Assembly: GCA_020439745.1 (NCBI GenBank)
Contig: JAGQSC010000027.1
Coordinates: forward strand, 1 to 64,000
Reading direction: 5' to 3'
Origin: Acidobacteriota bacterium
Lineage (GTDB): Bacteria > Acidobacteriota > Holophagae > Acanthopleuribacterales > Acanthopleuribacteraceae
DNA: 64,000 nucleotides
Each line of letters opens with the position of its first letter. Positions within the stretch are counted from its first letter, which is position 1. The notes beneath the pieces were generated by a model. The model saw only the letters and a list, made by a program, of their open reading frames with translations, made no database searches and was not told the DNA's origin. Both the position numbers and the translations under genes were made by a program. Positions 56,196 through 60,944 of this stretch are shown one piece after another.

Positions 56196-56860
56196 AAATG
56201 CTCCAAAGATGCTAATCGTCTGTGGGCCTCGTGCAATGCCTCTTCAAGTACGCCTTTCGCGTCAAGCTCGTCTGTGTCCAGTTTCCAAGCATCGTCGGCG
56301 GGTATTAGGGGTGCCACTTCTCGGGTCATGTCTTTCGAGTCTCTAGCTTGCTGTTCCACGAGGACTTGTTGGTATGGAACAGGCGACTGTTCTCCGCCCA
56401 GTTCCAGCCATCGTCTCCTGGCACGGGCCTCTGGCGAAGCGGTCAGGTAGATCTTCAAGAACGCGTTGGGGAACACCACCGTACCGATGTCGCGTCCGTC
56501 AAGCACACAAGGTTTCTTTATCGCGAAACGCCGCATCATGGCCGTCAAATGGTTACGGATCGTGGCAACAGACGAAACCGTGCTCACGTTTTGCGTGACT
56601 TCTTGACTGCGAATTTCTCGGCTGATGTCGTCCCCGTTGAGGCGGAAATTCGCACCTTCGACGTCGATAAAGATGCCGTCCAACCAAGCCTGATCGCTCA
56701 AAAGCTCAGGCGTATCGCCATCTTTCAACCAAGCCCATGTAATGCATCGGTACAACCCTCCAGTATCAAGGTATTGCCAGCGCAGTGCAGCCGCTAGTGA
56801 TCGGGCTAGTGTGGATTTTCCGACACCACTGGGCCCGTCGATGGCGATGACCTTGATCAT
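56192..56860 (-). CDS. cmk: Cytidylate kinase
   Basis: 222 residues. Phosphorylates CMP and dCMP. The P-loop is IDGPSGVGKSTLARSLA, the CMP-binding residues lie in YLDTGGLYRC (usually TGAMYR; here GGLYR), and the family signature CVLDGRDIGTVVFPNA is present, as are KIYLTASPEARARRRWLE and the DSKDMTREVAPLIPADDA segment. The GG in place of GA near the acceptor site is a minor variant. Overlaps the upstream pseudouridine synthase gene by four bases. Confidence 0.95.
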   Translation of the reverse strand: MIKVIAIDGPSGVGKSTLARSLAAALRWQYLDTGGLYRCITWAWLKDGDTPELLSDQAWLDGIFIDVEGANFRLNGDDISREIRSQEVTQNVSTVSSVATIRNHLTAMMRRFAIKKPCVLDGRDIGTVVFPNAFLKIYLTASPEARARRRWLELGGEQSPVPYQQVLVEQQARDSKDMTREVAPLIPADDAWKLDTDELDAKGVLEEALHEAHRRLASLEHL

Positions 56861-58257
56861 CGCCCACCCTTACCGCCCGACTTTTTAGAAGGACCATCGG
56901 TTCTTCTAGGTGATCGGGACCGGCTTTCCTGTGAGCTTCTGGTTTTTGGTCGATCGTCCCGTGACTTGGGCCGGTCATCACGGCGAGGCCGATCATCTCG
57001 AGACCTGGGCCGGTCATCACGCCGAGGTCGATCATCACGCGACCTGGGTCGGTCATCACGGCGAGGCCGATCATCGCGTGACCTGGGCCTGTCATCACGG
57101 CGAGTTTGATCATCGCGTGACCTGGGTCGGTCATCACGGCGAGGTCGATCATCGCGTGACCTGGGTCGGTCATCACGGCGAGGTTGATCATCGCGTGACC
57201 GGGTTCGGTCATCGCGCCGAGGCCGATCATCGCGTGACCGGGTTCGGTCATCGCGGCGAGGTTGATCGTCCCGTGACCTGGGTCGGTCATCGCGGCGAGG
57301 TTGATCATCGCGTGACCTGGGTCGGTCATCGCGGCGAGGCCGATCATCGCGTGATCTGGGTCGGTCATCACGACGGGGTCGATCATCCCAGGATCTAGGT
57401 CGATCATCACGTGCTTCCCTGGTTCCTCTGGAACTGGGTCGATCGTCTCGCCGTCGCGTTCGATCATAGCTCCGGGCAGGCTTGGGGAAGCGAATCGGGA
57501 CTCCCGCCTTTTTGAGTTCGGCTAGGCCATCGGCTGGCGATCCATACTCGCCCTTTTTCAACGCTGCTACTTCGTCTTCCGACAAGTGCCTGAAGTGTCC
57601 GGGTTCCAACTCGCCTAGCTCAATGCCGGCAAATTCAATGCGTTTGATTTTCGAAACCGGATGCCCGATATGTTCAAAGATCTTGCGCAAATGGTGTTTC
57701 TTGCCTTCGTACAGGACCACGCGAAGCCATGCGTTTTTTGGGGTATCGAAGAGCTGAATCTGACATCCCGAATAACGTACGCCGTCGATGGTGATACCTC
57801 TGGAGAGTCGCGCGATATGGGTGGCTGTGGGGATGCCCGAAACCTTGACCAGGTAGGTCTTGTGACAGCGTGATCGGGGTGAAATGAGTTTGTTCATCAA
57901 ATCGCCATCATTGGTGAGTAATAAGGCACCTTCTGATTGGAAGTCCAGCCGGCCCACGGGGTAAATACGACCTTTGACCCCTTTGATAAGGTCGGTAACT
58001 ACCGGTCTGGCTTCGGGGTCTGAAACACTGGATACGACCCCTTTTGGTTTGTACAACAACAAATATACATTGTGGCTGGGTAATGTGATGCGTTTGCCAT
58101 CGACCTTGATGTGGTCATTTTCGACGTCAGCTTTGGTGCCGAGTTCGGTCACGACTGTGCCGTTCACGGTGACGCGACCTTCCTCGATTAATTGTTCAGC
58201 CGCACGGCGGGATGCCACGCCTGCTTTGGCCAGTATCTTTTGTAATCTATCTTCCAC
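56857..58257 (-). CDS. RluB/RsuA-family pseudouridine synthase with long Arg/Asp repeat tail
   Basis: 466 residues. The S4 RNA-binding domain (RLQKILAKAGVASRRAAEQL, then GRVTVNGTVV) is followed by the catalytic domain with YPVGRLDFQSEGALLLTNDG, whose Asp is the nucleophile, and LRKIFEHIGHPVSKIKRIEF. The folded part ends near residue 240; the 23S rRNA-type enzymes RluB/RluE fit best. The rest is an extra tail: residues 283-438 are twelve copies of a 13-residue unit of the type RDDRPRSRDDRPR, then a basic Ser/Gly-rich end. The tail is highly charged and surely disordered. The stop overlaps the cmk start. Confidence 0.9.
   Translation of the reverse strand: MEDRLQKILAKAGVASRRAAEQLIEEGRVTVNGTVVTELGTKADVENDHIKVDGKRITLPSHNVYLLLYKPKGVVSSVSDPEARPVVTDLIKGVKGRIYPVGRLDFQSEGALLLTNDGDLMNKLISPRSRCHKTYLVKVSGIPTATHIARLSRGITIDGVRYSGCQIQLFDTPKNAWLRVVLYEGKKHHLRKIFEHIGHPVSKIKRIEFAGIELGELEPGHFRHLSEDEVAALKKGEYGSPADGLAELKKAGVPIRFPKPARSYDRTRRRDDRPSSRGTREARDDRPRSWDDRPRRDDRPRSRDDRPRRDDRPRSRDDQPRRDDRPRSRDDQPRRDDRTRSRDDRPRRDDRTRSRDDQPRRDDRPRSRDDRPRRDDRPRSRDDQTRRDDRPRSRDDRPRRDDRPRSRDDRPRRDDRPRSRDDRPRRDDRPKSRDDRPKTRSSQESRSRSPRRTDGPSKKSGGKGGR
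56944..57411 (-). repeat. Twelve-copy 39-bp tandem repeat within the pseudouridine synthase gene
   Basis: The gene tail contains twelve in-frame copies of a 39-bp unit, each encoding a 13-residue Arg/Asp/Pro/Ser module. Copies differ at only a few positions (R to Q, P to T, R to K, S to W) and many silent sites, so the array is old enough to diverge but young enough to be near-identical. Because the period is a multiple of three, expansions and contractions keep the frame. The array makes long open frames on other frames and strands which are not genes. Confidence 0.92.
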
Positions 58258-58260
58258 GGC

Positions 58261-59550
58261 TTAACCTTCTTTTATTTGTTGTCCAAGTGACGTCCAGAAT
58301 TCGGAATCCGCCAGCAGCAACTGGGCTGCGGCCTGTTGCGCGTTTTTCTTGGAGGTACCCCATGCTTCGGCTCGCACTTCATCGAGAATCTCGACACCCA
58401 TCAAATATCTTCGTTCATGGGCTGGGCCAGATTCGTCTATGAGCCTGTATTGCGGTACCTGATACCCCATCCCTTGTAGTCGTTCTTGTAATTCAGTCTT
58501 GAAGTCTTGTTTGCGTTTTAGAACCAATTTTTGCGCATGTATCTCAGCGTGAAACAGCCGATCAATGAAATCAGATGTTGCTTCCATGCCGCCGTCTAAG
58601 GTCATCGCCGCCATCACGGCTTCCATGGTGTCTGCCAAGATTGAGTCCTTGCTGGTTCCTTTGGTTTTTCGTTCGCCGACGCTCAACTTCAAGTGTTTGC
58701 CCAATTCCAGTTGTTTGGCTTTGTCAGCAAGCATGCGGGTTGAGACGATGGCTGATTTCTGTTTGGAGAGATCCCCCTCACGGGTGTGTGGATGGGCGAC
58801 GAACAACTTGCGAGCCACCAGGTAACCCAGGATGGAATCACCCAGAAACTCGAGTCTCTCGTTGTGAGGCAAGCTGTTTTCGTGTCCATATGATGCGTGG
58901 GAAAGCGCTTGCTCCAATAGTTCTGGCCGCTTGAATTGGTAACCTAGACGTGCTTCGAGGTGGCTCAAGGACGACACTCCAAAAGGGCCATATTCTACGC
59001 GGTTTTCAACCTTCCCGTCTATCGATGTTTTTTTGTCGAGCCACGCCAGGCATTGATGGATATCGTGGAACAGATGCACACTCGATAGATCCCAGGTAAC
59101 GTGGCCTTGCTGCTTTTGGAACATCAACCATTGGTAGAGAAACTCCCACTGACTCCCCAGTAACAGCATGTCTCTTGCTGGAATGATACCCTTGTTCATG
59201 CTGGCAAACACGTCCATGACTTCAAACAGAGTGCCTATGCCTCCAGGACCGGCGATGTAGATCTCGCCCAAGTTGATTAGAATACGTTGCCTGGCGTGGA
59301 GATCATTCACTGTTAAGATTTCGTCGGCATTTGGGCTGTGTTGGCGACCCGGAACGTCGAGTCGGATTCCTGTGGTTAATCCACCCGCCCGTTTAGCGCC
59401 GCGAAGCACGGCATCCATGAGTCCTGGCCCACCACCGTTGATTACATGATGGCCACGAGTCGCGAGAGCCTCGCCCAAAGATTCCATCAGTCGAGCTTCC
59501 TCATGGGTTCCCGAGGAGTTGCTACAGAAGATGACGACGTTCATAGTCAA
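58261..59550 (-). CDS. LOG-family phosphoribohydrolase-like domain fused to ribonuclease III
   Basis: 429 residues in one continuous frame. Residues 1-180 are a Rossmann-like LOG domain: VIFCSNSSGTHEEAR, HHVINGGGPGLMDAVLRGA, the LHARQRILI arginine and the GPGGIGTLFEVMD motif. Residues 195-415 are complete RNase III: the signature HNERLEFLGDSIL (E231, D238), SILADTMEAVMAAMTLDGG (D307, E310), and a dsRNA-binding domain from about 347 with WGTSKKNAQQAAAQLLL. All four metal-binding residues of RNase III are present. I see no internal start with a ribosome site that would give separate RNase III. It lies between the HD gene (four-base overlap) and the pseudouridine synthase. Confidence 0.88.
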   Translation of the reverse strand: MTMNVVIFCSNSSGTHEEARLMESLGEALATRGHHVINGGGPGLMDAVLRGAKRAGGLTTGIRLDVPGRQHSPNADEILTVNDLHARQRILINLGEIYIAGPGGIGTLFEVMDVFASMNKGIIPARDMLLLGSQWEFLYQWLMFQKQQGHVTWDLSSVHLFHDIHQCLAWLDKKTSIDGKVENRVEYGPFGVSSLSHLEARLGYQFKRPELLEQALSHASYGHENSLPHNERLEFLGDSILGYLVARKLFVAHPHTREGDLSKQKSAIVSTRMLADKAKQLELGKHLKLSVGERKTKGTSKDSILADTMEAVMAAMTLDGGMEATSDFIDRLFHAEIHAQKLVLKRKQDFKTELQERLQGMGYQVPQYRLIDESGPAHERRYLMGVEILDEVRAEAWGTSKKNAQQAAAQLLLADSEFWTSLGQQIKEG

Positions 59551-60887
59551 AACCTGAACGTCAGTTGACCGCGATGCATCAGCTCCAATTGATTGGGCAA
59601 GCCCAACTCATCTTCCAAGAGCTGAGCGGCCTTTAAGGCCTTGTGCTCGTAGGCGCGATCCAGAAATAGATAAAATCGCCAAATGGCCCGATGACCGTTT
59701 CGCAGGGCATCCAATTCTGGGTGGTGAAATTCGGATAACTGCACCAACGGTCCAGAATCTACGCGCACCGTCACAGATGCCTCTTTGAGGTTCATGGCGG
59801 TGTCGGGTGCGTAGAGGATCACAGCACATTGTGGCACCCTCAACGCCTTGGCGATATGTTTTTCGAGTTCGCTACGTGCTGAATGTTTGTTCAGGTGAAA
59901 CTGGTCCTGAACGCGATCCATGAATTCTTGAGGGGGAAAGTCTGGTACCAGGGGATCGCGTCCAACCATATAGACACGTTGATAAAGGCGTCTCGCTCGG
60001 ATGGCATCCCAAAGCGGCTTAAATGGTCGAACTTTGGATACGCGTTTTCCTAGTAGGTACATGAAACTGTCGTCCTGTAACTCGTAGAGTTCTTGCAGTT
60101 CAAATGCATCGTGAAGCAGCAACTCCTCTAGCAACCGAGAAATCATGGCCCCGGCCGCAACCTTGGCATGATGAAAATACACGCGCTCAGTGAGGTGGAA
60201 GCGCATCCTTAGGAGATTGATCAGTTCGGTCCAGGCATCTTGCCTGAATCCGCGTCCGCTATAGAGATTGAAACAAAGCCGATCACCTTCAATGGATAAG
60301 TAACGGAACAACCTCGAATCGTAGTCCAGCTTTAAACCGCAAAAGAAAGCGTCTCTTTTCATGTAGTCGAGCAAGTCTGCACATATGGGGCCTGCTACCA
60401 AATCGAATCCGTACTCTGGCCGCCATTGTTTCCCTTCGCTGAAAAATGTGACCAGCTGATCGCGGTAACCACTTTCGGCGAGCACGCGACCCAAACCAGG
60501 CGTTTCCAGGAAATAGTTCAGGCGGGCTTTGTTTTTGTCGTGTGCTGGAAGAATCCTGCGCTCGTCTTCCAGGGTGTGTCCAAAAGGGATGTGTGTAATG
60601 TCATGGAGCAGGGCAGCCAGAGACAGGAAGTCACGCATTTCGGCATCAATAGGTGGTTTTGAGAGCGTGCCAGCTCGTTGATTGATTTCTTTGACCAGTT
60701 GCTTTAGAAGCCAACAGGTGCCCACGGAATGCTCAAAGCGTGTGTGCTGTGCTCCGGGAAACACCAAGTACGACGTGCCCAACTGTCGGATTCCTCGCAG
60801 GCGTTGGAATTCGGGCGTATCCATCACTTCAATCTCAAGATCGCTTAGTTGAATGTCGCCATGGACCGGATCGCGTAAGGTCTTCAT
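59547..60887 (-). CDS. HD-domain phosphohydrolase (dNTPase-like)
   Basis: 446 residues related to the HD superfamily phosphohydrolases of the YdhJ/SAMHD1-like type. The opening KTLRDPVHGDIQLSDLEIEV and RLRGIRQLGTSYLVFPGAQH are characteristic; the HD metal residues are TRFEHSVGTCWLL and LSLAALLHDITHIPFGHTLE. Such proteins hydrolyse (d)NTPs, but many have unknown substrates. The start is ATG 60887 (a TTG at 60920 is possible), without a strong ribosome site. Its end overlaps the start of the LOG-RNase III fusion gene by four bases, so the two are made together. Confidence 0.9.
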   Translation of the reverse strand: MKTLRDPVHGDIQLSDLEIEVMDTPEFQRLRGIRQLGTSYLVFPGAQHTRFEHSVGTCWLLKQLVKEINQRAGTLSKPPIDAEMRDFLSLAALLHDITHIPFGHTLEDERRILPAHDKNKARLNYFLETPGLGRVLAESGYRDQLVTFFSEGKQWRPEYGFDLVAGPICADLLDYMKRDAFFCGLKLDYDSRLFRYLSIEGDRLCFNLYSGRGFRQDAWTELINLLRMRFHLTERVYFHHAKVAAGAMISRLLEELLLHDAFELQELYELQDDSFMYLLGKRVSKVRPFKPLWDAIRARRLYQRVYMVGRDPLVPDFPPQEFMDRVQDQFHLNKHSARSELEKHIAKALRVPQCAVILYAPDTAMNLKEASVTVRVDSGPLVQLSEFHHPELDALRNGHRAIWRFYLFLDRAYEHKALKAAQLLEDELGLPNQLELMHRGQLTFRF

Positions 60888-60944
60888 GTTAAGAGCATAT
60901 CGCGGGGCGACTACCTGCAACAGTCTGTTTCTGACGTCGATCCA

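Follow-up and report, generated by a model that had tools for sequence, protein, structure and literature searches.

Bacterial RNase III (Rnc; TIGR02191; structures 7r97 from E. coli and 2nug from A. aeolicus) and the LOG phosphoribohydrolases (type I, 5zbk and 3sbx; type II, 5wq3 and 1wek) are the closest described counterparts of the two halves of the protein reported here. The protein resembles RNase III in its signature, its acidic residues and its dsRNA-binding domain, with a Z score of 24.7 to 7r97, and the rnc-rluB-cmk synteny of its gene is that of rnc in related species, but it differs in carrying an additional, in-frame LOG-type domain at its N terminus. This domain shares with LOG enzymes the fold (Z ~23), the GGGPGLMD motif, the catalytic Arg/Glu pair and the [PS]GGxGTxxE phosphate loop, whereas the class to which it belongs has Gln for the adenine-binding Lys and Phe/Tyr for Asp/Glu, and it is joined to an RNase III. 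Stand-alone LOG proteins with the same RQ...[FY]E pocket and ~40% identity to the fused domain occur in a species of the same family (G002) and in Gottesmanbacteria (L045), but they are not linked to rnc. PpnN, another multidomain LOG protein, combines a LOG-like nucleosidase core with two gating domains; its core has the fold of the fused domain (Z 19), but its PAG domains are absent from the fusion and the RNase domain is absent from PpnN. In addition, bacterial genes with nested in-frame starts yield two proteins, as exemplified by the IF2 isoforms. The fusion gene is like these in that a short form would start inside the frame of the long form; here, however, the short form would represent the ancestral gene and the long form would have arisen by fusion across its promoter.

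The window analysed is a 64,000-nucleotide stretch of contig JAGQSC010000027.1 from an Acidobacteriota bacterium (assembly GCA_020439745.1; family Acanthopleuribacteraceae). In the ORF reading of this 64-kb window, a single uninterrupted frame at 58261-59550 (-) encodes 429 aa from a TTG codon. The ATG at 59544 is the likelier start, because a sister species starts there and the upstream TTG is not conserved; residues are numbered from this ATG unless TTG numbering is stated, ATG numbering being TTG numbering minus 2. The frame and its parts are as follows.

58261..59544 (-), fusion ORF, 427 aa from the ATG (429 aa from the TTG at 59550); the same ORF is found in the sister species G001 (L032, 8076-9374, -)
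59026..59544 (-), LOG-type (SLOG/LDcluster4, Lysine_decarbox) domain, residues 1-173 of the ATG form, from Pfam/NCBIfam and with mostly high pLDDT in the AlphaFold model
58972..59025 (-), linker, residues 174-191, predicted disordered, pLDDT under 50
58555..58926 (-), RNase III catalytic domain with E229, D236, D305 and E308
58309..58500 (-), dsRNA-binding domain, from Pfam dsrm and the AlphaFold model

Pfam places LDcluster4 at residues 4-114, Lysine_decarbox at 45-152, Ribonucleas_3_3 at 209-332 and dsrm at 351-414 (TTG numbering), the last with an E value of 3e-13 (PF00035). Taken together with NCBIfam, these matches put the LOG-type part at 4-152 and the complete RNase III, dsRNA-binding domain included, at 198-414. 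With the NCBIfam RNase III equivalog model TIGR02191, the fusion scores 224 bits against a cut-off of 166, whereas it stays below the cut-offs of TIGR00730 (84.8 bits, cut-off 96.35) and of the CtkRMPhLog model (53.6 bits, cut-off 300). The AlphaFold model has a mean pLDDT of 87 and consists of two well-predicted parts with the disordered stretch 174-191 between them. The RNase III half contains the NERLEFLGDS signature and the four acidic catalytic residues. Thus, the first-pass annotation of this DNA, which described a LOG-type domain and a complete RNase III in one frame, was right on this architecture: the frame is open from end to end, Pfam and NCBIfam support both domains, and E231, D238, D307 and E310 (TTG numbering) and the dsRNA-binding domain are all there.

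The LOG-RNase III fusion is real. A separately assembled genome of a sister species in the same genus, 'Holophagae bacterium OFTM365' (Acidobacteriota; JAJCXM010000022.1; G001), carries the same fusion with the same neighbours, which rules out an assembly or frameshift artefact, and its protein is 53% identical overall (66% in the RNase III half and 38% in the LOG half). The first-pass annotation had proposed looking for the fusion in relatives and for a second rnc in the genome, and had suggested that this protein may be the organism's main RNase III. The sister gene answers the former; as to the latter, no second rnc was found in the source genome (97% completeness), and the fusion is the only rnc detected, as that suggestion anticipated. 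Both sampled species of the genus, which are uncultured, have the fusion, and all five other sampled species of the family have a stand-alone rnc. One of these, G006, has a 380-aa open frame before rnc, but this frame does not match LOG and appears to be open by chance. Among the matches listed, no further fusion came up in profile searches of 396 genomes of the same phylum, nor in those of 398, 299 and 287 genomes (984) of three other phyla, for which the listed matches extended to an E value of 1e-48 only, so that a distant fusion could be missed. A tblastn search of plasmids and phages found no fusion elsewhere, and two N-terminal peptide patterns, a query of low sensitivity, matched only the sister when run against 84,980 species genomes. 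Within this sampling, the fusion is derived and restricted to the genus. The first reading knew of no described enzyme that joins these two activities, and we likewise found no earlier account of a LOG-RNase III fusion in the open-access literature.

The two genes flanking the fusion are encoded on the same strand.

59547..60920 (-), upstream, HD-domain phosphohydrolase gene, whose stop codon lies 2 nt before the fusion ATG
56857..58257 (-), downstream, rluB-type pseudouridine synthase gene, an ancestral rnc neighbour, from Pfam/NCBIfam

The pseudouridine synthase reported to follow the fusion gene is this rluB-type gene. In both fused species the order is a kinase-like gene, yraN, the HD gene, the fusion, rluB, cmk, rmlD and an M20 peptidase gene. 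Among the five unfused species of the family, rluB lies beside rnc in four, and cmk and yraN do so in three, where the stretch read allowed; rnc-rluB-cmk is ancestral housekeeping synteny. The HD gene is also widespread, being present in 7 of 7 family genomes with 58-68% identity in the six others, and its junction with the fusion is TGA-CT-ATG in the window and TAA-ATC-ATG in G001. In the unfused genomes, however, it lies away from rnc, at ~10 kb in G002, at ~90-750 kb in G003, G005 and G006, and on another contig in G004. The coupling of the HD gene to the fusion is therefore recent and defines no module. This removes the basis for the dsRNA-processing and nucleotide-salvage or defence-like module once conceived for the locus; an HD-LOG-RNase III module or anti-phage defence system was rejected since synteny in the five unfused members reveals no conserved co-occurring gene set, and nothing points to a defence role. 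As side observations, the HD protein (59547-60920) has an HD_assoc_2 domain, and the family genomes also carry a second, more distant HD paralogue (~30%). The C-terminal tail of the RluB-type protein (window 56948-57411) is encoded by a 39-bp unit (RDDRPRSRDDRPRRD-like) repeated in tandem ~12 times, and the long opposite-strand ORFs over it are probably by-products of the repeat; the tail of the sister protein is R/S/D-rich and has no regular repeat.

The LOG half aligns with structures 7w2i, 5zbk, 3sbx and 5wq3, AMP complexes among them, at VIA-align Z scores of 23-24 over ~171 residues. Its active-site motifs include R85, Q86, T105, F107 and E108; both fusions and both stand-alone RQ-class relatives share the catalytic Arg (R85) and Glu (E108), and the phosphate-binding GGxGT and T105 are retained. 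In LOGII of C. glutamicum, alanine at R155, K156, T175 or E178 abolished AMP cleavage, D177A nearly abolished it, and K156 and D177 line the adenine site (PMC5379747). Q86 and F107 of the fusion stand where CgLOGII has K156 and D177, and the adenine-binding Lys and Asp/Glu are accordingly missing. The earlier remark that GPGGIGTLFE is intact holds for the motif itself, which conforms to PGGxGTxxE and ends at E110 (TTG numbering), but it does not imply AMP cleavage. Because both adenine-binding residues differ, AMP is a doubtful substrate of the fused LOG half. The sister LOG half has SGGVGTAFE, that is, SGG for PGG, and given this replacement its activity could be declining; AGG occurs in other LOG-like proteins compared.

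Among the loci fetched, LOG pockets are of the classes RK with [DE]E, RL with LE, and RQ with [FY]E. The RK...[DE]E class includes separate LOG paralogues of both fused species, the RL...LE class is made up of proteins from archaea, some bacteria and viral contigs, and both fusions form the RQ...[FY]E class together with the proteins of G002 and Gottesmanbacteria. The G002 gene (L034, 7233-7769) is unlinked to rnc and lies beside a GroEL-like gene (named by eye), and the Gottesmanbacteria gene (L045, 105-638) is likewise unlinked to rnc. Since these stand-alone proteins have RQ...[FY]E, the Gln/Phe replacement is a subfamily trait rather than decay after fusion, the class predates the fusion, and the subfamily probably has another base specificity. 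In the tree, the two fused LOG domains group together (95/84), and the rows closest to them by path are G002 and L045. Between the two fusions, the pocket motifs show 77% identity, compared with 29% for the rest of the LOG domain (Fisher p = 2e-6), and this far better conservation indicates that a ligand site is under selection. Separately, HAD-phosphatase-like and NUDIX-like genes (names by eye) closely follow the RQ-class LOG gene in L045 (105-2008), which hints at nucleotide housecleaning there. LOG-like proteins on putative viral contigs (IMG/VR, L110-L138) have an RL...LE pocket distinct from the AMP-type RK...[DE]E; they were considered as kin of the fused LOG and set aside, being of the RL...LE and not the RQ class.

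The first reading of the fusion, sound as to architecture, overlooked that the joint between the halves appears to retain the promoter, ribosome-binding site and start codon of rnc. These signals lie in or next to the linker.

59016..59021 (-), -35-like hexamer TAGACG, part of the internal promoter proposed for rnc, the rank 1 promoter-like sense-strand site of the ORF in both species
58992..58997 (-), -10-like hexamer TAGAAT with a spacer of 18, ending 23 nt ahead of the internal start
58977..58980 (-), Shine-Dalgarno-like GGAG, 8 nt ahead of the internal start (in G001, GGAGG, 5 nt)
58966..58968 (-), internal TTG start at codon 193 (ATG in G001), which aligns with the stand-alone RNase III start in the family

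Between the two fused sequences (n=2, a single pairwise comparison), 9 of 18 linker residues are identical and 8 of these 9 keep the identical codon, compared with 65 of 205 conserved residues elsewhere (P ~0.003, per-residue null). DNA identity is 65% over codons 175-193 versus 33% over codons 134-173. In both species, TAGACG-18-TAGAAT outranks every other promoter-like sense-strand site in the ORF and occupies the same codons, as scored with sigma-70 weights not derived for this phylum, and a separate scanner agrees. Three of the five stand-alone rnc relatives have TGGACA-17-TATGAT ending 24, 24 and 25 nt before the ATG; in L036 the site is weaker or further away (TAGACT-17-TTTAAT, 30 nt before the rnc start), and in L033 it is less clear. 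Moreover, codon 193 is a start codon with a Shine-Dalgarno-like site in both species although the residues there differ, and a start at this codon would give a 235-aa RNase III. TTG, the codon in the window, is a weak start codon. The promoter score by itself is unremarkable, being equalled by 9% (window) and 19% (G001) of synonymous shuffles of that stretch, and the number of promoter-like sites in the joint region is not above that in shuffles. A single promoter match of this kind is not significant; the case for a nested promoter rests on conservation and position. With a conserved promoter-like site, a Shine-Dalgarno-like site and an in-frame start at the ancestral rnc start all present, the locus has the sequence features of a nested gene; the linker is probably the translated former rnc promoter and leader, still usable. 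Since these signals are retained inside the joint, a free RNase III product is likely, and RNase III activity is expected of either the long or the short form from the intact residues.

We therefore lean, with moderate confidence, towards a dual-product locus, with free RNase III as one product and a LOG-RNase III protein as the other; the LOG half of the latter likely cleaves a nucleoside 5'-monophosphate other than AMP. In an ancestor of the genus, an RQ-class LOG gene may have come to lie immediately before rnc and then lost its stop codon, an order of events that we infer. The sequence itself shows the resulting anatomy, in which the LOG frame continues across the apparent former promoter, ribosome-binding site and start codon of rnc and on into RNase III. 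Transcripts from upstream, through the HD gene, would give the 427-aa LOG-RNase III protein, and the internal promoter and codon-193 start would give an ordinary 235-aa RNase III for housekeeping dsRNA processing. The LOG half would most likely hydrolyse the N-glycosidic bond of a nucleoside 5'-monophosphate, with AMP cleaved poorly or not at all; catalysis on a non-adenine nucleotide is plausible. Because the linker is disordered, the halves would probably act independently, or, more speculatively, a mixed RNase III dimer might bring LOG activity to RNA-processing sites. It is unlikely, although conceivable, that mixed dimers of free RNase III and LOG-RNase III carry a domain that cleaves or senses non-adenine nucleotides to sites of dsRNA cleavage, and thereby couple RNA turnover to specific, perhaps modified, nucleotides.

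One may argue that the locus is a plain bifunctional fusion, in which only the full-length protein is made, the linker is kept for its peptide, and RNase III and LOG jointly serve RNA decay and the salvage of nucleotides. This explanation fits the single intact frame found in two species, the lack of a second rnc, and the tight HD-ATG spacing, which suggests operon translation. It nevertheless seems rather improbable, as it leaves unexplained why a linker predicted to be disordered exceeds the remainder of the gene in synonymous-site conservation, and why a start codon and Shine-Dalgarno-like site persist at the ancestral position though the residues differ; the RQ-class LOG of G002, moreover, is unlinked to RNase III.

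Two further explanations concern the LOG half itself. It might be a non-catalytic nucleotide sensor, with binding of a nucleoside monophosphate or alarmone regulating RNase III; the replaced adenine-binding Lys and Asp/Glu and the SGG of the sister are consistent with this, and PpnN, a related protein, is under (p)ppGpp control (PMC6717881). However, PpnN takes alarmones through extra gating domains that the fusion lacks, tight allostery is less to be expected across a disordered linker, and neither the two fusions nor the stand-alone relatives have lost the catalytic Arg and Glu or the phosphate loop; we hold a sensor role to be quite unlikely. Neutral read-through, with the LOG domain a decaying passenger ahead of a working rnc, would account for the faster evolution of the LOG half and for the change from PGG to SGG in the sister, but we judge it very improbable: the frame has stayed open over a long divergence, the pocket motifs are conserved well beyond the remainder of the domain, and the unusual RQ/[FY] residues are common to free-standing relatives and thus not random.

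In summary, the fusion is rare and, in what was searched, undescribed, and it combines known kinds of arrangement, namely domain fusion and a nested start. Judged by sequence, the fused LOG half is not a simple AMP-cleaving LOG and the locus is not a defence module. Within the reach of our searches, this domain arrangement is new for RNase III, a housekeeping nuclease that is near-universal; it has persisted through a long divergence in a lineage that has received little study, and it points to an uncharacterised LOG subclass defined by RQ...[FY]E. For the dual-product reading that we prefer, the joint seems to illustrate how two genes can fuse while the second one survives, its former promoter and start having become a linker while they keep working.
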